Positions 44,221-58,199 of a stretch of DNA of 64,000 nt are shown here, piece after piece. The stretch comes from Dethiobacter alkaliphilus (GTDB taxonomy: Bacteria; Bacillota; Dethiobacteria; DTU022; UBA8154), in the NCBI GenBank assembly GCA_016841605.1, contig JAENYV010000006.1:124001-188000 (forward strand), written 5' to 3'. The notes beneath the pieces were generated by a model that was not told the origin of the DNA, searched no databases, and saw nothing but the letters and a program-made list of their open reading frames with translations. Positions within the stretch are counted from its first letter, which is position 1; each line of letters begins with the position of its first letter. The translations under genes were made by a program, and so were the position numbers.

Positions 44221-46050
44221 CTAAGTAATAAAGACCTTATGCCAGAGCAGGAAAATGAGGATGGTCCACAGTTTTCGGCTGACATCTTTTTTACCGGTGC
44301 TATGCTCTCTTAAAAGTTGTCTGACATTTTTACGATTGAACCAGTTTCCTCCTTCTCCCGCCAGGAGATCCTGGAAAAGTTCCTGAAAGTCGGGCCGCTT
44401 CATCCAGTGCCTCGTTGGGACGGGAAAGCCCCGTTTAGGCCGGTTTAACGCTTCAGGGGGGAGAATTCCCTTGAAAGCTTTCCGCAGAGCAACCTTTGTT
44501 TTATCACCCTGGATTTTGTATTTGAGAGGGATTGTTGCCGCGAATTCAAAGACGTGATGGTCCAGGTAGGGAACTCTGAGTTCAAGAGAATTGGCCATTG
44601 TCATTTTATCGGCTTTAGCCAGGATATCACCGGGCATCCAGGTATGCAGGTCGATATACTGCATCCGGGTTACATCGTCCAGATGGGAGGATTCCTTGTA
44701 AAGACAGTCTGTAATGCGGAAGGGAGATAGATTTTTTTTCAACAATGTAATAGTTGATTTTTCCAGGGGAGAAAAGATATAGGCATTTCCCAGAAATCTT
44801 TTTTCTATGGGGCGCTTTGTCCTGGCCAGGTAGTTTTTCCCCGGAATTCCCGGAGGCAGTATTTTCTCCGCCAGGTAAAGGGCTTTTTGCAGGGGTGAGG
44901 GCAGCGCATAAAAAAATGCCAGTGACTGGGGCTCACGGTAAATGCCGTAACCGCCAAAGACCTCATCAGCACCTTCTCCGGAGAGAGTGACGGTAATATT
45001 TTGTTTCGCCATGCGCGCGACAAAAAATAGGGAGATCGCTGCCGGGTCGGCAACCGGTTCATCAAAATGCCAGACCAGGCGGGGAAGGTTTTGTAGAAAA
45101 TCATCAGGGCTGATGATGTATTCGTGGTGGTCTGTTTCCAGATATTTCGCCGTTTCCCGGGCTTCTTTCAGCTCGCTGTACTGTTCTTCGCTGTAACCTA
45201 CGCTATAAGTGGAGACTGGTTCCAATTCCCGGGCCAGCGCGGCAATAAGGGCTGAATCCACTCCGCTGCTTAAAAAAGCTCCCCTGGGAACATCGCTGTT
45301 CAAGTGGAGTTTGACGGACTCCCTGAGTTTTTCCCTGATCCCCTCAAGATAATATTCTTCCGGTTCCGCGGAAGGTGTGAAGCGGATTTGCCAGTAACGG
45401 GAGATCTGCAGAGGTTTTCCGGCGGACTTGAGCAGGTAATGCCCCGGTGGAAGACGATAAATTTCCGAAAACATTGTTTCCGGTTCAGGAACATACTGAT
45501 ATGTAAGATAATCGAGGAAAGCATCTTCATTAACCTGCGCCGAAAAGTCGGAGAGTTCCAGCAGGGCTTTGATTTCGGAGGCAAAGGCCAGAGTTCCAGC
45601 CTTTTCAAAGTAATAAAAAGGCTTGATGCCAAAGCGGTCCCGGGCTCCAAAAAGCTGTTTTTTCTCCTTATCCCAGAGGACAAAGGCGAACATGCCGCGC
45701 AGATCTTCGAGGCACCGGGTTCCCTTATCTTCATACAAGTGGATGATCACTTCAACATCGCTTCGGCTGGAAAAACGGTGTCCTTTGCTGATCAGTTCCT
45801 CCCGCAGGGATTGAAAATTGTAAATTTCCCCATTGCAAAAAAGCCAGATATTTCGCTTTTCGTTACTTATGGGCTGACTGCCTGTCATAAGATCAATAAT
45901 ATTTAAACGACGAAAACCCAGTCCAATATTTTCATCCAGGAAATGAGTTCCTTCATCGGGTCCCCGGTGGATCATCTTTTCTCTCATTTTGCTCACCAGG
46001 TTTTCTTCAATGCTGCCCGTTTCCTTTAAAATTCCACAAAAACCGCACAT
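44221..46050 (-). CDS. asnB: asparagine synthetase (glutamine-hydrolysing) type amidotransferase
   Basis: A 609-residue two-domain protein. The N-terminal class II glutaminase has the nucleophile Cys2 (MCGFCGI), and a C-terminal synthetase has the ATP pyrophosphatase loop SSGVDSALIAA. It would make asparagine or amidate another carboxylate. A second paralogue follows upstream at 47411-49258 and a Gfo/Idh gene lies between, so at least one copy may have a special substrate such as a wall precursor. A terminator lies between this gene and the oxidoreductase gene. Confidence 0.88.
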   Translation of the reverse strand: MCGFCGILKETGSIEENLVSKMREKMIHRGPDEGTHFLDENIGLGFRRLNIIDLMTGSQPISNEKRNIWLFCNGEIYNFQSLREELISKGHRFSSRSDVEVIIHLYEDKGTRCLEDLRGMFAFVLWDKEKKQLFGARDRFGIKPFYYFEKAGTLAFASEIKALLELSDFSAQVNEDAFLDYLTYQYVPEPETMFSEIYRLPPGHYLLKSAGKPLQISRYWQIRFTPSAEPEEYYLEGIREKLRESVKLHLNSDVPRGAFLSSGVDSALIAALARELEPVSTYSVGYSEEQYSELKEARETAKYLETDHHEYIISPDDFLQNLPRLVWHFDEPVADPAAISLFFVARMAKQNITVTLSGEGADEVFGGYGIYREPQSLAFFYALPSPLQKALYLAEKILPPGIPGKNYLARTKRPIEKRFLGNAYIFSPLEKSTITLLKKNLSPFRITDCLYKESSHLDDVTRMQYIDLHTWMPGDILAKADKMTMANSLELRVPYLDHHVFEFAATIPLKYKIQGDKTKVALRKAFKGILPPEALNRPKRGFPVPTRHWMKRPDFQELFQDLLAGEGGNWFNRKNVRQLLREHSTGKKDVSRKLWTILIFLLWHKVFIT

Positions 46051-46223: not shown

Positions 46224-47324
46224 TTACAAGATAGGTATTTTTTCTTTTTCAGGAGTTTTTCTATGTTGCCCTAGGTCTCGGGTTATTTCTTCATCCACCT
46301 GGACAATGATTTCCTCCCGAATAGATTTGAGGATATCCAGGACCATTTTGGTATCGCCGTAGCCCATTTCCGGTGTAACAAAAAGAGGTTCCTGATGGAA
46401 ACGGGAATTGTAGAAATTTAAAAGCTCATTATAATACCCCCGTTGCGGTCGATAGGGCACCTGCTCGGAAGTACCGTTTTGGTAGGCGATATTAATGATC
46501 CCGCAATCCCTCTCTTCCAGATAAATCATTCCCTCGGTGCCGAAAATACGCATTCCGATAAAAGGTCTCTGTGTTTCTTTTCCGGCGCAGAAAAAGGAAA
46601 ACAGTCCGGGTATACCGTTTTTAAAGAGCAGATTAACGGTTACAACGGAGTAGGGAGAATAATCGGCCTCCAACGTTTTACCAAAAGCCTGGAGCTTATC
46701 GACGGCTCCGAAGATGTGCCGGAGCGCAGCCAAATCGTGTATTCCCGAATCAAGGACGGCTCCTCCGGGGTATTCCGGATACTGGCGCCATTCTCTGGCA
46801 GGAAATTTATCCTTGATCATATCTTCGGGAAAATTCAAGATCCGGTTATGTATAAAGTAGTAGACATTGCCGATTTTCTTTTCCCTGACCATATCCCGGA
46901 TTATATTTGTCTCATCATTGTAACGATAATTCTCGGCAATCATAATCGCTATGTCGTATTTCGCGGGAAGTTCCCGGTGTGCCCGTGCGTCCTCAAGGTT
47001 GTCGGCTGACGGTTTTTCACAGATGATTCCTTTTCCTTTGCCCGCGATTCCCCGGGCGACTTCTTCTGTAACGGCATAGTTCAGGGAAATGGGGACCATA
47101 ATATCAAAGAGATCGATATCATCCCGCTTGATCATCTCATGGTAATCATCAAAAATACTTTCTTCATCCAGACCCAGAATTTTTGCCCACTTGTTTGCCT
47201 TTTCCAGGTCAATGTCGCAGAGAGCGACAATTTTATAGCAGTTTTCCAGTTCTTTATAAGCAGGATAGTGCAGTTTTTCAAAAGCCATTCCTATACCGAT
47301 AATACCGACATTCAGCTGCGTCAA
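46224..47324 (-). CDS. Gfo/Idh/MocA family oxidoreductase
   Basis: A 366-residue NAD(P)-dependent oxidoreductase. The N-terminal Rossmann fold reads VGIIGIGMAFEKLHYPAY, the EKPSADNLEDAR segment has the usual cofactor-contacting Lys, and the C-terminal alpha/beta domain includes YPGGAVLDSGIHDLAAL. Substrates of the family are mostly sugars or sugar nucleotides. TTG is the start, weakly supported. It stands between two amidotransferase genes on the same strand. Confidence 0.85.
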   Translation of the reverse strand: MTQLNVGIIGIGMAFEKLHYPAYKELENCYKIVALCDIDLEKANKWAKILGLDEESIFDDYHEMIKRDDIDLFDIMVPISLNYAVTEEVARGIAGKGKGIICEKPSADNLEDARAHRELPAKYDIAIMIAENYRYNDETNIIRDMVREKKIGNVYYFIHNRILNFPEDMIKDKFPAREWRQYPEYPGGAVLDSGIHDLAALRHIFGAVDKLQAFGKTLEADYSPYSVVTVNLLFKNGIPGLFSFFCAGKETQRPFIGMRIFGTEGMIYLEERDCGIINIAYQNGTSEQVPYRPQRGYYNELLNFYNSRFHQEPLFVTPEMGYGDTKMVLDILKSIREEIIVQVDEEITRDLGQHRKTPEKEKIPIL

Positions 47325-47410: not shown

Positions 47411-49258
47411 TTAGAAAATTTTTACCCCGTAATCCTGAAGCCAGGTATTTATTTGGATAAGGTAGGCCATAAATTGCGGATAAGTCATCAATTGGCCAAA
47501 CCAGGGCTGACCTGTGGAATTGTTTGCCTTCTCCACCAGGGCGCGCACAGCTGCCGCATCGATTAGAGGTAAAATGGGTGATGCGGGATCATCAAGAATC
47601 TCCAGAAGCCACTTTTGCACGGCAGCCCGGTAAGCCGGATGATGTGTTTTGGGATAGGGGCTTTTCTTACGGTAGAGAACGTCTCCCGGAAGGGTGTTTT
47701 GAAGGGCATGGCGCAAAATACCTTTCTCCCGGTTATGGCATGTTTTAATCTCCCAGGGAATATTCCAGACATATTCCACCAGACGGTGGTCGCAAAAAGG
47801 GACCCTGACTTCCAGCCCGCAGGCCATGCTCATACGGTCCTTGCGATCCAGAAGTGTAGTCATAAACCAGATCATATTCAGGTAAAACATTTCTCTCCGG
47901 CGTTTTTCCAGCGGGTTCTCCCCGGGGAGAGTAGGTACTGCCGCAATTGTCTCTTGGTAGCGTGACTGTAAATATTCTTCCGGTTTGAGAATTTCTCGCA
48001 GTTGTGGTGAGAGTAGTTCAAGACGCTCGGCGAGGGATCTGACCCAGGGGAAGGTTTCCCTGTTCAGTATTTCCGGATTGTGAAACCAGGGATAACCCCC
48101 GAATATTTCATCAGCAGCTTCTCCGGAGAGAGCTACAGTGGCCTCTTTTTTAATTTCCCGGCAAAACAGCAAAAGTGAAGAGTCCACATCAGCCATGCCG
48201 GGCAAATCCCGGGCCTTTACAGCCATAATCAGCGCTTCCACCAACTGCGGGGTGTCGATTACTACTTTATGGTGCTCCGTTCCCAGGAAGCCGGCAACTC
48301 TGTCCACCCACTGCGAATCTGCATCCGGCTGAAAGGTGCCGGCCTGAAAGTAACGTTCGTTATCCCTGTAGTCCACGGAAAAAGTGTGAAGCCGGTCGGC
48401 TCCGTTTTCCCGATAAAATTCTGCGGCAAAAGCGGTCAAAGCGCTCGAATCCAACCCTCCTGAAAGCAGGGTGCAGACGGGAACGTCGGAGACCAGTTGT
48501 CGCCTGACGGTATCTTTTAAAAGCTCATAAACTTTTGTCGCGGTACCTTCCAGGTCATCTTCATGGGCTTTGCTCAGGGGATGCCAGTATCTTTGTACCT
48601 TAATTCCCCTGCGATTATAAACGAGGTAGTGACCCGGCTTCAGTTCGTTTATTCCCCGGTAAATGCCATGGCCGGGAGTGCGAGCCGGTCCCATGATAAA
48701 AATTTCAGTCAGACCCTCTTCATCCAGCTCGGGCAAAATGTCCGGATGTGCCAGGAGTGCTTTTAACTCGGAAGCAAATAAAAAAGAACTATTTTTTTGC
48801 GTATAAAAGAGAGGTTTTACTCCCAAACGATCCCGGGCCATGAAAAGGCTTTGCGTTGCTTCATCCCAGATAGCAAAGGCAAAAATTCCGTTTAAGCGGT
48901 CCAGGCAATTTGCTCCCCATTCCTGATAAGCTTTCAGGAGCACTTCCGTATCGGAGTTTCGTGTGGTAAAAAAATGTCCGAGTGATTCAAGCTCCCTGCG
49001 CAGTTCCAGTGTATTGTAGAGCTCTCCGTTATAAGTAATTGTGCCGGTATGCTCTCCATACCGTCGGGTCATGGGCTGTTCTCCGCCCTGCGGATCGACA
49101 ACAATTAGACGCCGGTGACCCAGGGAGGCGTGGGGGGAGAACCATAGCCCCGAAGCGTCGGGCCCCCGTGGTGACAGTTTTTGTGTCATTACCTCCAGGA
49201 CTGTTTTCTCCTGTGTCATATCTCTTTCCCAGTCTATCCATCCGGCAATTCCGCACAT
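47411..49258 (-). CDS. asnB: asparagine synthetase-type amidotransferase, second copy
   Basis: A 615-residue paralogue: class II glutaminase with Cys2 (MCGIAGW) and synthetase loop LSGGLDSSALTAFAA. AGGAGGGAAC fixes the ATG at 49258, which puts the nucleophile Cys at position 2; a longer frame from 49297 would bury it. It differs widely from the copy at 44221, so this is not a recent duplication. It is about 85 bases upstream of the Gfo/Idh gene and may be in one transcript with it. Confidence 0.88.
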   Translation of the reverse strand: MCGIAGWIDWERDMTQEKTVLEVMTQKLSPRGPDASGLWFSPHASLGHRRLIVVDPQGGEQPMTRRYGEHTGTITYNGELYNTLELRRELESLGHFFTTRNSDTEVLLKAYQEWGANCLDRLNGIFAFAIWDEATQSLFMARDRLGVKPLFYTQKNSSFLFASELKALLAHPDILPELDEEGLTEIFIMGPARTPGHGIYRGINELKPGHYLVYNRRGIKVQRYWHPLSKAHEDDLEGTATKVYELLKDTVRRQLVSDVPVCTLLSGGLDSSALTAFAAEFYRENGADRLHTFSVDYRDNERYFQAGTFQPDADSQWVDRVAGFLGTEHHKVVIDTPQLVEALIMAVKARDLPGMADVDSSLLLFCREIKKEATVALSGEAADEIFGGYPWFHNPEILNRETFPWVRSLAERLELLSPQLREILKPEEYLQSRYQETIAAVPTLPGENPLEKRRREMFYLNMIWFMTTLLDRKDRMSMACGLEVRVPFCDHRLVEYVWNIPWEIKTCHNREKGILRHALQNTLPGDVLYRKKSPYPKTHHPAYRAAVQKWLLEILDDPASPILPLIDAAAVRALVEKANNSTGQPWFGQLMTYPQFMAYLIQINTWLQDYGVKIF

Positions 49259-49362
49259 AATCTGTTCCCTCCTAAAAAAATCGGTAATGATTCTCACTAG
49301 TGTATGCTGTTAGTTCCTTTTTGTTCATTTTCCGGCTGTTAAATGGTGCATATTTTAACGGG

Positions 49363-51907: not shown

Positions 51908-51982
51908 GACGTCAAGGGTACGTTTAGACTTGAAATGCGCTTAAATTGTGAAGAGCTGTGAACAGCCCGTGGAGAGCCTTTT

Positions 51983-54900
51983 GTGTCGGGCAGATTTTCT
52001 TGTAAGAGGTGTCGAGGTTTGATATTTAAAGGTTTTTGCCTGGGAGCAACAACGATTAGCCTGGTAACACTGCAAAAAGAAAAAACAACGGGGAACATAG
52101 AGATTTTAGAAACGCTTTTAAAGTCTCATGAAGGAGAACTTCGCCGCACGTTGTTGGAACTTCTGCAAGGTGATACAAGTGCCCGCCTTTGTGCAACAGG
52201 CCGCAAATTTCGCCGTTTGTTGTCTACTGCCGGCATTCCGGAGCCGGAGGCCGTTGAACTGGCTTATGAGTACTGCTGCCGGGAGGCAAGAGTGGACGGT
52301 ATTGTCAGCGCCGGAGGAGAGACAATTATTTACTATGAGCTTGACAAAAACGGCCGTATCGGCAATGTCCAGGCCGGGAGCAAGTGCGCCTCGGGTACCG
52401 GAGAATTTTTTCTTCAACAGATCAAGCGGATGGGCCTCGGGTTGGAGGAGGCTTTAACTATCTCCGAAGGTGAAGAACCTTATCCCGTGGCAGGGCGGTG
52501 TTCTGTTTTTTGTAAGAGCGATTGCACCCATGCTCTCAATAAAGGAGAGAAAAAGGGAAAAGTTGTGGCCGGTCTCTGCCGCATGATAGCCGGAAAAATT
52601 GTAGAACTGGTTCAGAAATCCGGAGGAAAACGAATACTGCTGATTGGCGGAATGGCCGGAAATAAGCCTGTAGTGAATTTTCTTGGCGCTCACATGGAAG
52701 TGATCATCCCACGGGAAGCGGCCTATTTTGAAGCATTGGGCGCCGCCCTATGGGCTGCCCTGCACGAGCCGGCACCGGTCTTGATCCGTGAGGAGACCCT
52801 TTTTCTCCCCGCGGGCAGTTCTTTTTCTTTCCTTCCTCCACTTGCCGAAGCACGAAAGTCGGTAAGTTTTAAGAAATTGCTCCGGGGAGAGGCTGCCCCG
52901 GGTGAAAGGCTGATCCTGGGGTTGGATGTAGGCTCGACAACCACCAAGGCAGTGCTTCTGCGGGAGCGGGACAAGGCCCTGGTCGCTTCGATTTACCTGC
53001 GCACAGAGGGAGATCCTGTCAGGGCAGCTCGCCAATGCTATGCCTCCCTGGCCCGGGAAGTTTTTTTTGATGTACATATTATCGGACTGGGAGTGACCGG
53101 GTCCGGGCGTCAGATTGCCGCGCTGCACGCTCTTACCCCGGCTGTTATAAATGAGATTATCGCCCACGCCAGGGCTGCCCTTTTTTTTGATGGACAGGTA
53201 GATACTATTTTTGAAATAGGTGGGCAGGATGCGAAGTATACATATATTGTTAACGGAGTTCCTGCGGACTATGCCATGAATGAGGCCTGCTCTGCAGGAA
53301 CGGGGTCCTTTTTGGAGGAATCCGCCTTTGAGGCTCTGGACGTGGAGATGACAGGCATTGCTCCTCTTGCTCTGCAAGCGGTCTCCCCCCCAAATTTTAA
53401 CGACCAGTGTGCAGCTTTTATCAGCAGCGATATTAAAACAGCGGTCCAGGAGGGGCTTGGAACACCTGATATCCTGGCCGGACTGGTTTATTCCATCTGT
53501 CTAAATTACCTGAACCGCGTAAAAGGTAATCGACCGGTGGGCAAGAAAATATTTATGCAGGGGGGCGTTTGTTATAACCAGGCTGTTCCCGTGGCTATGG
53601 CCGGCCTGCTGGAGAAAGAGATCGTCGTTCCTCCTGAGCCGGGTCTGATGGGGGCTTTTGGGGTCGCGCTGGATGTTGCCGAGAAGATAGGTAGGGGTAG
53701 CCTTCCGGAGGGCAGCTATAATCTGCAAGAGCTTGCCGGAAGAGAGATCGAATATGGGAAGCCTTTTACCTGCCGGGGGGATAAAAGTTGCGACCGGCGT
53801 TGCCTCATTAATGTCCTTAAGATTGAGGGGAAACGTTATCCGTTTGGAGGAGCCTGCAGTCGTTATACCGGAGTACAGAGACAGGTTCGCCATGATGTGG
53901 GTGCTTTGGACCTGGTTTTTCAGCGGGAGCAGATTATTTACCGGCAGAGCGCAGGAAACAGAAGCTTCTCTAGAAAAGGTAAAAAACTGGGAATTAGCCG
54001 TTCTCTTCTGGTAAATACTCTGTTTCCTCTGTATTTTCATTACTTTTCTTCTCTGGGTTTTGAGGTGATTACTCCGTCCACTTCCGACCCGCTTGGCCGT
54101 CTGCGTCAGGGAGCCCCTTTTTGTTTTCCTGTTGAACTCGGTCACGGTTATATGGCCGACCTTCTTCGCATGGAGCCGGATTATATCTTTGTGCCGCATG
54201 TCAAGGCGCTTCCCTCTTTAAGTGATGAGGTTTCCATTATCTGCCCCCTGGCCCAGGGAGAACCCTATTATCTGAAAGCAGCTTTTGCGGATCTTCAGGA
54301 TTCCAGCCGCGTTCTCTCTCCGGTGTTGGATTTTTCCCATGGTTATAGCGTTCCGGAGCAAGAATTTGTGGAGATGGGGAAAACCCTGGGCGCGACGCAG
54401 CAAGAAGCCAGAGAGGCTTTTTGCTCTGCCGTACGCCGGCAAGAGCAGGCTCAGGCAGAGTGTAAACAGCTTGGCCGGGGACTTTTAGCGGAAATGGAGT
54501 TGGATTCCGCTCAGAGAGCGGTTGTGCTCTTTGGCCGTTCCTACAGTGCGTTTACTGAAGGTGCCAACCTGGGTATCCCGCACAAGTTTGCCTCCAGGGG
54601 ATGGAAAATAATTCCATGCGATTTTCTTCCTCTGGAAGAGGAAGAGCCTTTTCCCTCAATGTACTGGTCCAATGGGCAGATTATTCTGCAGGCAGCTGAA
54701 CTCGTGTGCAAGAATCCCCGCTTTTTCGGGGTTTATATCACTAACTTCAGTTGTGGGCCGGATTCGTTCCTGGTAGGTTATTTCCGGAGCATTATGGGGG
54801 AAAAACCTTCTCTGACCCTGGAACTGGACGGCCATACCTCTGATGCGGGGCTCGATACCCGTATTGAGGCTTTCTTGGATATTGTGGAGGGATACCTGGA

Positions 54901-56290
54901 GACAATGGGGCAGAGCTCCCCGGCAAAGAGGAATGAAAGAAAAAAAGCCCGTCCTGTAACTCTGGTGGACAGAAAGAAAATATTTGTTCGGTTTTCCGAA
55001 GGTGACCGTCTTCCCCTGTCTCACCCGCATGTAAAAGTACTTGTTCCCTCGATGGGTGCAAACTCAGCCCCTTTTCTTTCCGCGGCTATGAACCGGTGGG
55101 GTATCCGGGCCATTGCCCTCCCCCCCCCGGGAAACCGGGAACTGAAATTGGGAAGGTCTTACAGCACCTGTAAGGAATGCCTTCCCTTGCAGCTGACTGT
55201 GGGGAGTCTGTTGCGCTATCTTGAAGAAGTTCCTCTTAAGCCGGAAGACCGGATTGTTTACTTTATGCCCGATGCATCGGGCCCTTGCAGATTTGGTCAG
55301 TATCAGGTTTTTATAAACCGCCTGCTGGAGAGCCTGCAAATTGACAATGTGACAACATTTTCCCTCAGTGCGGAAAACGGTTACGGAGGCCTGGGCACTG
55401 CTTTCAGCCTCCGGCTTTGGGTAGCGGTTATTTTCGCGGATGTCCTTTCAGAAATCTACAGTTCCCTTCTTGTTCTGGGAGCGGACAGGGAAGAAGCCCT
55501 CGCGGTTTATAACCGGGCAACCGGACAGATTGCCGCTGCCCTGGCCGTGGAAAACTGGGGCGGGATCAAGAAAGCGGCCATCCGTTGTTCAGAGGAACTG
55601 GCGAGGGTAAAACGAACCGGCAGGCTTGATGATTATCCTAAAATTGCCCTGCTGGGAGAAATATATGTTCGCAGTGACGATTTTTCTCGTCAGCACCTGG
55701 TCGAGTTTCTGGCCGAAGAGGGTATCATTACCAAAGTGGCATCGATCAATGAATGGCTTTATTATTGCGATTACCTGGTAAAAAAGGGGATTGCAGCCCT
55801 TTCAACTCCCCTGGAAAGATGGAAAAATTCGCTGCAAACCCCGGTGAAAAGATGGATTGAGAGGGAGATTAAAAAAATCTTTTTTACTGCAGGATTGTCT
55901 GAAAGTTATTTGACCAGGGTAGACAGGGCTCTTTCCCTGGGCGAAAATTTTATCTCCCCCCATCTAACCGGAGAAGCGATTCTGACGCTTTCCACTGCTC
56001 TGGCGGAATTGGTGGAAGAGGTATCAGGGGTTATAGCCCTCGGTCCTTTCGGCTGTATGCCCAACAGGGTGGCGGAAGCGGTGGGCAGCCGGATACTGGC
56101 CCGGGAAGAACCGCCTCTTTTTAGCAATGGGACCTTTTTATCCCGCGTTCTTTTGCGCCATCCCCATCTGCCCTTTATGGCCGTGGAGACAGATGGAAAT
56201 GTTTTTCCACAGGTCGTGGAGGCCAGGCTGGAAAGTTTTATTCTTCAGGTCAAACGCCTTCACCAGGTAATACGGGAGGAAAAATTATAG
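51983..56290 (+). CDS. giant acyl-CoA dehydratase activase-related protein
   Basis: A 1435-residue fusion related to the activator (HgdC/BcrA/D type) and substrate components of 2-hydroxyacyl-CoA dehydratases. The first ASKHA domain (to about residue 270) is degenerate in the phosphate loop (LGATTISLV) and has GGET for GGQD but keeps Cys pairs (GSKCASGTG; CSVFCKSDC). The second (about 310-570) is canonical: GLDVGSTTTKAVLL, GGQDAKY, and the [4Fe-4S] ligands NEACSAGTG and DQCAAF. DUF2229-like and HgdB-like regions follow from about 660. It would couple ATP hydrolysis to low-potential electron transfer. The target enzyme is unknown. The GTG start follows GGAGAG. Confidence 0.85.
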   Translation: MSGRFSCKRCRGLIFKGFCLGATTISLVTLQKEKTTGNIEILETLLKSHEGELRRTLLELLQGDTSARLCATGRKFRRLLSTAGIPEPEAVELAYEYCCREARVDGIVSAGGETIIYYELDKNGRIGNVQAGSKCASGTGEFFLQQIKRMGLGLEEALTISEGEEPYPVAGRCSVFCKSDCTHALNKGEKKGKVVAGLCRMIAGKIVELVQKSGGKRILLIGGMAGNKPVVNFLGAHMEVIIPREAAYFEALGAALWAALHEPAPVLIREETLFLPAGSSFSFLPPLAEARKSVSFKKLLRGEAAPGERLILGLDVGSTTTKAVLLRERDKALVASIYLRTEGDPVRAARQCYASLAREVFFDVHIIGLGVTGSGRQIAALHALTPAVINEIIAHARAALFFDGQVDTIFEIGGQDAKYTYIVNGVPADYAMNEACSAGTGSFLEESAFEALDVEMTGIAPLALQAVSPPNFNDQCAAFISSDIKTAVQEGLGTPDILAGLVYSICLNYLNRVKGNRPVGKKIFMQGGVCYNQAVPVAMAGLLEKEIVVPPEPGLMGAFGVALDVAEKIGRGSLPEGSYNLQELAGREIEYGKPFTCRGDKSCDRRCLINVLKIEGKRYPFGGACSRYTGVQRQVRHDVGALDLVFQREQIIYRQSAGNRSFSRKGKKLGISRSLLVNTLFPLYFHYFSSLGFEVITPSTSDPLGRLRQGAPFCFPVELGHGYMADLLRMEPDYIFVPHVKALPSLSDEVSIICPLAQGEPYYLKAAFADLQDSSRVLSPVLDFSHGYSVPEQEFVEMGKTLGATQQEAREAFCSAVRRQEQAQAECKQLGRGLLAEMELDSAQRAVVLFGRSYSAFTEGANLGIPHKFASRGWKIIPCDFLPLEEEEPFPSMYWSNGQIILQAAELVCKNPRFFGVYITNFSCGPDSFLVGYFRSIMGEKPSLTLELDGHTSDAGLDTRIEAFLDIVEGYLETMGQSSPAKRNERKKARPVTLVDRKKIFVRFSEGDRLPLSHPHVKVLVPSMGANSAPFLSAAMNRWGIRAIALPPPGNRELKLGRSYSTCKECLPLQLTVGSLLRYLEEVPLKPEDRIVYFMPDASGPCRFGQYQVFINRLLESLQIDNVTTFSLSAENGYGGLGTAFSLRLWVAVIFADVLSEIYSSLLVLGADREEALAVYNRATGQIAAALAVENWGGIKKAAIRCSEELARVKRTGRLDDYPKIALLGEIYVRSDDFSRQHLVEFLAEEGIITKVASINEWLYYCDYLVKKGIAALSTPLERWKNSLQTPVKRWIEREIKKIFFTAGLSESYLTRVDRALSLGENFISPHLTGEAILTLSTALAELVEEVSGVIALGPFGCMPNRVAEAVGSRILAREEPPLFSNGTFLSRVLLRHPHLPFMAVETDGNVFPQVVEARLESFILQVKRLHQVIREEKL

Positions 56291-57890: not shown

Positions 57891-58199
57891 ATGCAGATTG
57901 AGAAGAAAGATGAACGGACAGCCGTTATTATTCCCGCGGGTAAAATTGATGTCACAAATTCAAACTTGTTTAAAGCAAAGCTTACGGAGCTTTACCAGGA
58001 AGGTTTTAATGATATTATTATTGATTTTACCGATGTAAATACCCTGGATAGCTCAGGAATCGGAAAGCTGCTTGTTTTCTATAAAAAACTAAAGGATCGG
58101 GGCGGCACGTTAAGTATTATTCATGTCAAACAAGCAAATATCCGTCACTTGCTGGATATGATTTGCCTGGATAAGGTAATTAATATTACCTGGGACTAG
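57891..58199 (+). CDS. STAS-domain anti-sigma factor antagonist-like protein
   Basis: A 102-residue single STAS domain of the SpoIIAA/RsbV type. The phosphorylatable serine lies in LDSSGIGKLL (Ser54/55). AAGGGAGGGG precedes the ATG. No serine kinase/anti-sigma or sigma gene of the SpoIIAB/SigF type is adjacent, so its partner must be encoded elsewhere. It is convergent with the HD-GYP gene. Confidence 0.88.
   Translation: MQIEKKDERTAVIIPAGKIDVTNSNLFKAKLTELYQEGFNDIIIDFTDVNTLDSSGIGKLLVFYKKLKDRGGTLSIIHVKQANIRHLLDMICLDKVINITWD

Follow-up and report, generated by a model that had tools for sequence, protein, structure and literature searches.

We analysed a 64,000-nucleotide stretch of Dethiobacter alkaliphilus DNA (assembly GCA_016841605.1, contig JAENYV010000006.1, positions 124,001 to 188,000; hereafter the window), in which one long gene encodes a candidate Ger-type glycerol ester reductase, as judged from Pfam matches, homologous loci and a tree. 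The open reading frame (ORF; 51983..56290, + strand) is intact, with 1435 codons ahead of the stop. It starts with GTG, and a candidate ribosome-binding site, GGAG, can be read directly 8 nt before the start codon (51971..51974, +). The protein consists, in order, of two activase halves of the ASKHA (acetate and sugar kinase/Hsc70/actin) type, Act1 and Act2, a four-cysteine link and two dehydratase-like reductase halves, Red1 and Red2. The Pfam matches comprised two stretches of PF01869 and one of PF09989 (DUF2229), residues 668-881, and the top NCBIfam match was the acyl-CoA dehydratase activase domain (TIGR00241). We ran AlphaFold2 on two overlapping pieces of the protein with 64-row alignments. 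The models were confident for residues 1-640 (predicted local distance difference test, pLDDT, 90.5; predicted template modelling score, pTM, 0.82) and residues 306-1435 (pLDDT 87.7, pTM 0.86), and both activase halves adopted the ASKHA fold. ORF, Pfam and models therefore agree with the original prediction, made from the letters of the window, that two activase domains and dehydratase-like regions are fused in one 1435-residue chain. A match to Ndufs5 and rows from complex I were set aside; in our judgement, cysteine spacing is probably behind both.

One scan of a genome collection of 84,980 species returned at least 566 relatives of the window protein. We kept the best 80 of the 566, found among 590 candidates, as homologous loci; the set is therefore biased to close relatives, and several loci end at contig ends. 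The nearest copies among these best 80 loci were labelled Bacillota and Syntrophomonadaceae. Identity to the window protein was 46-62% in the 77 locus rows longer than 1380 aa, a conservation that, by alignment, is far above chance. Cysteines were counted in an alignment of 81 rows (window protein and 80 homologues), in which rows with a gap at a position were not counted.

For comparison, we assembled long proteins of some of the sampled genomes together with named records (Listeria, Acetoanaerobium, Fusobacterium and Collinsella). PF09989 was present in 139 of the 149 genomes sampled from the phylum of the window. The window clade comprised 29 rows, three of them duplicates, and was set beside 29 rows of the plasmalogen synthase (PlsA) type, 26 from sampled genomes, mostly picked by PF09989 score, and three named records. 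Stretches L096-L125 were too short for Act1, and 19 of these 30, plus one more, were used at full length. A further 12 stretches gave five PlsA-type rows, L151 and the window-clade row L152, with the split forms L153-L157 left out. We built a tree of the quick kind, omitting L184, which was in the wrong frame and whose gene is represented by L072; L091 and L186 sat on long branches and their placement is unsure. The tree parted the window clade from the PlsA-type rows with a Shimodaira-Hasegawa-like approximate likelihood ratio (SH-aLRT) support of 100. Identity was 45-100% inside the window clade (406 pairs) and 47-83% inside the PlsA type (406 pairs), compared to 21-28% between them (841 pairs).

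We observed that Act2 (residues 308-573; 52904..53701, +) has intact nucleotide motifs, DVGSTTTK and GGQD, in alignments to 4eht and 1hux. The model range 309-573 superposed on HadI with Z 31, and the structural matches HadI, HgdC, MbdQ and DCCP-R spanned Z 31 to 25. Its two predicted hinge-cluster ligands, Cys436 (53288..53290, +), aligned to the NDKCAAGTG motif of HadI, and Cys476 (53408..53410, +), aligned to the Cys of the HadI TCTVF stretch, were Cys in 81/81 rows. Cys530 (53570..53572, +) lies in GGVCYN, which we take to be the adenosine motif, and was likewise Cys in 81/81 rows; it is clade-specific, with Phe in 28 of 29 PlsA-type rows. C352 was Cys in 74/81 rows and C506 in 78/81.

Act1 (residues 12-290; 52016..52852, +) scored 83.7 bits for PF01869 when searched alone, with the match at residues 93-258, and its model range 14-262 superposed on pantothenate kinases with Z of about 20. 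The original prediction held that this domain had lost the phosphate loop. The hairpin is still there, as GFCLGAT, and what has gone is its chemistry: the phosphate-1 Asp is replaced by Cys19 and the Lys by Ser26. The phosphate-2 motif has also changed, from GGED to GGET. Position 19 (52037..52039, +) was Cys in 72 and Ser in three of the 75 covering rows, and never Asp, with a gap in six of the 81 rows; these counts hinge on the alignment, and another one gave Cys 73, Ser 3 and gap 5. In all 29 PlsA-type rows, positions 19 and 114 were Asp, position 177 was Ala and position 181 was Ile or Val. The changes at position 19, at the Lys and in the phosphate-2 motif bear out the claim that one half has a degenerate nucleotide site.

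The cysteine pair claimed for Act1 was retained in every covering row. Cys135 (52385..52387, +), the first predicted hinge-cluster ligand, was Cys in all 80 rows with a letter. The second, C173 (80/80), opens the motif C173-x3-C177-x3-C181 (52499..52525, +), which adds two clade-specific cysteines, C177 (78/80) and C181 (80/80), carried on one helix of the AlphaFold2 model (residues 174-186). C199 was Cys in 64/80 rows. The ligands of both halves (C135, C173, C436 and C476) were thus conserved in the window protein and its homologues, as the prediction needed. Because position 19 is never Asp and the hinge cysteines are conserved across homologues, the degenerate half is, on this alignment, a fixed clade trait and not decay in one genome. 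The best reading is that degenerate Act1 and the extra cysteines are hallmarks of the window clade. Seven rows without C352 were all without C199 and without Cys at residue 310, which is Leu in the window protein and Cys in most other rows; we drew no ligand set from this co-loss because the seven rows may be one lineage.

With the ASKHA fold and two hinge cysteines per half, the protein falls among the PF01869 activases of the benzoyl-CoA reductase (BCR) and 2-hydroxyacyl-CoA dehydratase (HAD) family. Unlike free homodimeric activases, which have two equal nucleotide sites, it has fused halves, and its Act1 is without the phosphate-1 Asp and Lys. Paired activase halves also occurred in the PlsA-type rows, with both nucleotide sites intact there.

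The link, C597-x5-C603-x3-C607-x17-C625 (53771..53857, +), had all four cysteines in 81/81 rows and resembles a small metal knuckle, possibly binding Fe-S or Zn. These cysteines were also present in the PlsA-type rows and in the Ger2-like rows described below, and were gapped in L151 and L178. Red1 (residues 660-985; 53960..54937, +) consists of DUF2229 and a C-terminal part weakly like HGD-D, and its C714, C754 and C924 were Cys in 81/81 rows. In Red2 (residues 1000-1430; 54980..56272, +), C1066 and C1102 were Cys in 81/81 rows, C1358 in 80/80 and C1063 in 75/81. HGD-D (PF06050) scored 15.7 bits on the window protein, below the 28.4-bit cut-off; the C-terminal part of Red1 matched HGD-D weakly in 40 of 45 members (E up to 1, best 0.0014), and Red2 matched DUF2229 weakly in five of 45 (best E 0.0098). 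Among the best 50 matches listed by Foldseek and by VIA for the 306-1435 model, all lay on Act2 and none was a HAD or DCCP (double-cubane cluster protein) reductase chain for Red1 or Red2, which excludes nothing. The remaining cysteines of the protein were variable over the 81 rows. L151 and L178 represent a further clade of large activase fusions; Red2 there probably holds no cluster of the three-Cys kind, because Cys is absent at 1066, 1102 and 1358.

Bacterial glycerol ester reduction has been described for two related enzymes. In passages of PMC9702350, PlsA (with PlsR in C. perfringens) converts the sn-1 phospholipid ester to a vinyl ether, and Listeria is given as a plasmalogen producer. 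A section of PMC12838417 presents the predicted structure of PlsA as Act1-Act2-Red1-Red2, two activation and two reduction/dehydration domains. Ger is a PlsA homologue that gave alkyl ethers in anaerobic E. coli; the part of PMC11150832 concerned with D. alkenivorans lists an active Ger of 159 kDa and a Ger2 of 153 kDa with which no ether formed. The modified plsA of T. maritima was first noted in PMC8788747, in the portion consulted, and the validated Ger proteins are described in an excerpt of PMC13274423 as PlsA-like with two PF01869 domains. We observed this architecture, with fused reductase domains, in the window protein.

To this we can add genome content. Two genomes of Desulfatibacillum, the genus of G150, hold two large PF09989 proteins each. 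In one of them (G154, 6.5 Mb), the first protein is 159.6 kDa from the first start, carries LGLCLGAST and belongs to the window clade, and the second is 153.3 kDa from the first start, carries LGIDVGS with an intact Asp and belongs to another clade. In G149 (3.6 Mb), a third genome with a Desulfatibacillum label, only the window-clade member is present. Desulfonema magnum, a cultured member of the window clade, carries three PF09989 proteins, and the PlsA-type clade includes none of them. From mass and two-gene content, not from an accession, we infer that the 159.6 kDa protein is the active Ger; the 153.3 kDa protein matches the inactive Ger2 by mass. Together, these data suggest, with a probability of roughly 0.7, that the window protein is a Ger-type glycerol ester reductase, a single-chain, ATP-driven enzyme acting on a phospholipid ester.

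Several observations weigh against this assignment. The clade is tied to Ger through mass and genome content and not through the sequences of SHJ90043 or Tmari_0479. The two Desulfatibacillum proteins are only 24.6% identical, a poor fit with Ger and Ger2 being called closely related and highly similar in the relevant passage of PMC11150832. Profiles of Red1 and Red2 gave no credible solved-structure relative by sequence, and comparison of the two profiles with each other (hhalign) gave a probability of 0.5%. No lipid gene was a common neighbour over the clade. Clade members also occur on two contigs with the label Thermoplasmatota, a group whose lipids are already ethers. The two members (L076 and L083) are sisters with support 100, and may be archaeal or misbinned bacterial; L083 also has a separate 253-aa activase ORF just upstream of the clade member.

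A rival reading is an ATP-driven reductase of another substrate, as DCCPs act on small molecules, with the Ger link a coincidence of mass. The neighbourhood, which differs between loci, the clade-specific cysteines, which suggest different cofactors, the reliance on mass in place of validated Ger sequences and the closeness claimed for Ger and Ger2 all speak for it. We nevertheless consider it unlikely, as a Desulfatibacillum genome agrees with the published pair in holding two such genes and in both protein masses, and the PlsA/Ger layout is present.

It is also improbable that the window protein is PlsA itself, which would use two electrons and a dehydration to make a vinyl ether. The domain order is the same, 123 positions have the same residue in at least 95% of both sets (26 clade and 29 PlsA-type rows), and hinge, link and reductase cysteines are shared. 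In the tree, however, the protein lies outside the clade of the Listeria, Acetoanaerobium and Fusobacterium rows, at the 21-28% identity given above, and 63 positions are fixed for different residues between the same two sets, including Cys19 for Asp. In addition, the Desulfatibacillum clade member matches by mass the Ger that makes alkyl ethers. The comparison is with Listeria-type rows and not with the C. perfringens PlsA sequence. A printed idea that two activation domains mark Ger and one marks PlsA (an excerpt of PMC13274423) does not suit the Listeria-type rows, which have two intact ones. We found no PlsA-type protein in the genome of the window (98% complete), whose two PF09989 proteins are the window protein and a paralogue on another contig, L091 (L091:7775-12109; G000:C13). 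This paralogue has 1444 aa, retains the Act1 Asp, shares 25% identity with the window protein and belongs to neither clade.

The original prediction had the electrons delivered to an unknown separate enzyme; although Act2 is most like the free activases HadI and HgdC, a stand-alone activase feeding a partner in trans is very improbable, because in the 80 homologues the acceptor halves belong to the same chain, to the extent that each contig covers them, with invariant cysteines and a known family chemistry (PlsA/Ger), no partner gene recurs over the clade, and yedF is in the flanks of 0/80 loci.

The preferred assignment, a Ger-type reductase, can be set out as a mechanism. According to a passage of PMC11574389, the HAD activase is a homodimer with a cluster at its interface; sections of PMC11574389 and PMC11971306 describe how the HAD and BCR activase dimer holds a [4Fe-4S] cluster by two Cys per subunit and how ATP pushes an electron into the reductase. 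As both activase subunits lie in one chain here, a single hinge [4Fe-4S] cluster between Act1 and Act2 would have C135, C173, C436 and C476 as its ligands. Of the internal pseudo-dimer that had been proposed, the paired halves and the four conserved hinge cysteines are seen in the chain, and their packing around one cluster is likely. Because Act2 keeps DVGSTTTK and GGQD and Act1 is without equivalents, we would expect one ATP site per chain. ATP would be hydrolysed by Act2 only and would drive low-potential electrons into the fused Red1 and Red2, with Act1 as a structural half that has lost its nucleotide chemistry and gained cysteines.

These extra cysteines could serve a further cluster or electron entry. 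Cys19 takes the position of the catalytic Asp and, with C177 and C181 one and two helix turns past C173, a second cluster could adjoin the hinge cluster. At the three-Cys sites of Red1 and Red2, the ester carbonyl of a glycerophospholipid would be reduced to the ether by way of a ketyl radical, at a cost of four electrons per saturated alkyl ether. The data show the order of the domains, the folds of both activase halves, the conserved cysteines, the placement in the clade and nucleotide motifs that are intact in one half and degenerate in the other, and from these we infer the clusters, electron path, substrate and product. A fuller version is doubtful but possible: Act1 would be an ATPase turned Fe-S electron-entry domain in a single-ATPase pseudo-dimer, the enzyme would spend four electrons on an alkyl ether versus two on the vinyl ether of PlsA, and Cys19 with FCKSDCTH would mark Ger.

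We assessed the spread of the clade motif FCKSDCTH with a 24-base degenerate pattern. It matched 11 of 299 genomes (at least 90% complete) of the phylum of the window and 31 of 60 genomes of the class around Desulfatibacillum; the reversed control matched neither set. Because it demands an exact match, the pattern overlooks clade members whose motif varies, for example those with Ser at 177 (2/80 rows).

Gene-neighbour analysis, run on 81 loci, found no partner gene that recurs across the clade, which fits a self-contained enzyme. The largest neighbour clusters covered nine and eight of the 81 loci, and their scanned members were MurJ (opposite strand) and a nitroreductase, respectively. Pfam searches of 79 same-strand neighbours within 250 bp (77 from the loci, two from the window) gave at most six for one family, Nitroreductase. 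A neighbour family common to six deltaproteobacterial loci lies 0.2 to 6.8 kb upstream; the member that we scanned (L067) is a CDP-alcohol phosphatidyltransferase, which fits lipid work, yet the arrangement may be synteny by descent.

YedF (TIGR03527; 56337-57035, +), which joins an N-terminal TusA to a DsrE-like C-terminal part, lies 47 bp downstream; the original prediction drew from it a hint at selenium or sulfur chemistry. The hint is unsupported because yedF is near none of the 80 homologues (62 loci with at least 1 kb upstream and 63 with at least 1 kb downstream). At E 1e-5, the ORFs of the 80 loci held no homologue of YedF, of the PopT-like, Fur and DUF3793 genes or of the small ORF 57891-58199; YjbQ was present in four of the 80 loci and the phosphoglycerate-mutase-like gene in two. 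SelD of this genome (G000:C26:134253-135179, -; locus L205) is probably itself a selenoprotein, because it has one in-frame TGA, and nothing ties it to the window gene. For the tetraether synthase Tes (presumably NF045702), we found only sub-threshold matches in this genome (best 72 versus a 450-bit cut-off); Mss was not searched for. Elsewhere in the window, two asparagine-synthetase-like ORFs (44221-46050 and 47411-49297, -) flank an oxidoreductase-like ORF (46224-47324), as judged by eye. The genome also has two pairs of adjacent activase genes (L092 on G000:C8 and L093 on G000:C26), and L093 includes two adjacent ORFs of 388 and 439 aa, possible reductase subunits for these activases.

The window protein belongs to the known PlsA/Ger family, and it is the clade signature that merits testing. 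In the sections consulted, PMC13274423 (2026) describes a motif signature for Ger as still to be determined, and PMC11868695 (2025) states that the kind of ether formed cannot be read from sequence homology alone. A degenerate activation domain or Ger cysteine signature was not found in the literature searched, including the available parts of PMC13274423, PMC11604127 and PMC11150832; the first description of Ger may have one. Ger and PlsA homologues are thus indistinguishable by sequence in print, and a clean clade boundary, with its broken ATP site and extra cysteines, may offer a testable marker to tell them apart. The assignment would name a likely ether-lipid maker among organisms whose closest gene copies are labelled Bacillota and Syntrophomonadaceae, an anaerobic bacterium that probably converts its ester-linked membrane lipid to a tougher ether-linked one. 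Ether lipids in Bacteria blur the lipid divide that separates them from Archaea, and membrane-spanning forms serve as palaeoclimate proxies. An asymmetric activase, if true, would represent a new mode of ATP-driven pumping of low-potential electrons.

HadI and HgdC of 2-hydroxyacyl-CoA dehydratases, MbdPQ of a benzoyl-CoA reductase and DCCP-R have the ASKHA fold and hinge Cys motif seen in Act2; those activases are separate subunits, whereas the window protein has both halves and the reductase in one chain. In Red2, the intervals between C1066, C1102 and C1358 are 36 and 256 residues, near the values of 33 and 252 for Cys95, 128 and 380 in BzdO, the subunit with the catalytic [4Fe-4S] cluster in a passage of PMC11971306. 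The same passage has six Cys holding the [8Fe-9S] cluster of DCCP in one subunit; the window protein has three conserved Cys in Red1, four in the link and three or four in Red2. PlsA of the Listeria-type single chain has the same Act1-Act2-Red1-Red2 order and the same hinge, link and reductase cysteines. It differs in having both nucleotide sites intact (29/29 rows) and no Cys at 177, 181, 530 or 1063. The Ger2-like rows (L175, L176 and L180) share the layout, the hinge, link and reductase cysteines and also C199, and differ in keeping the Act1 Asp; L175 is 24.9% identical to the window protein, and the published Ger2 that it matches by mass was inactive in E. coli. Ger (Desulfatibacillum alkenivorans SHJ90043 and Thermotoga maritima Tmari_0479), like the window protein, has two activation domains and the reductase domains in one chain, and the Desulfatibacillum protein of the 159 kDa class (L174), at 49.4% identity to the window protein, has both Cys19 and the C-x3-C-x3-C motif in common with it.

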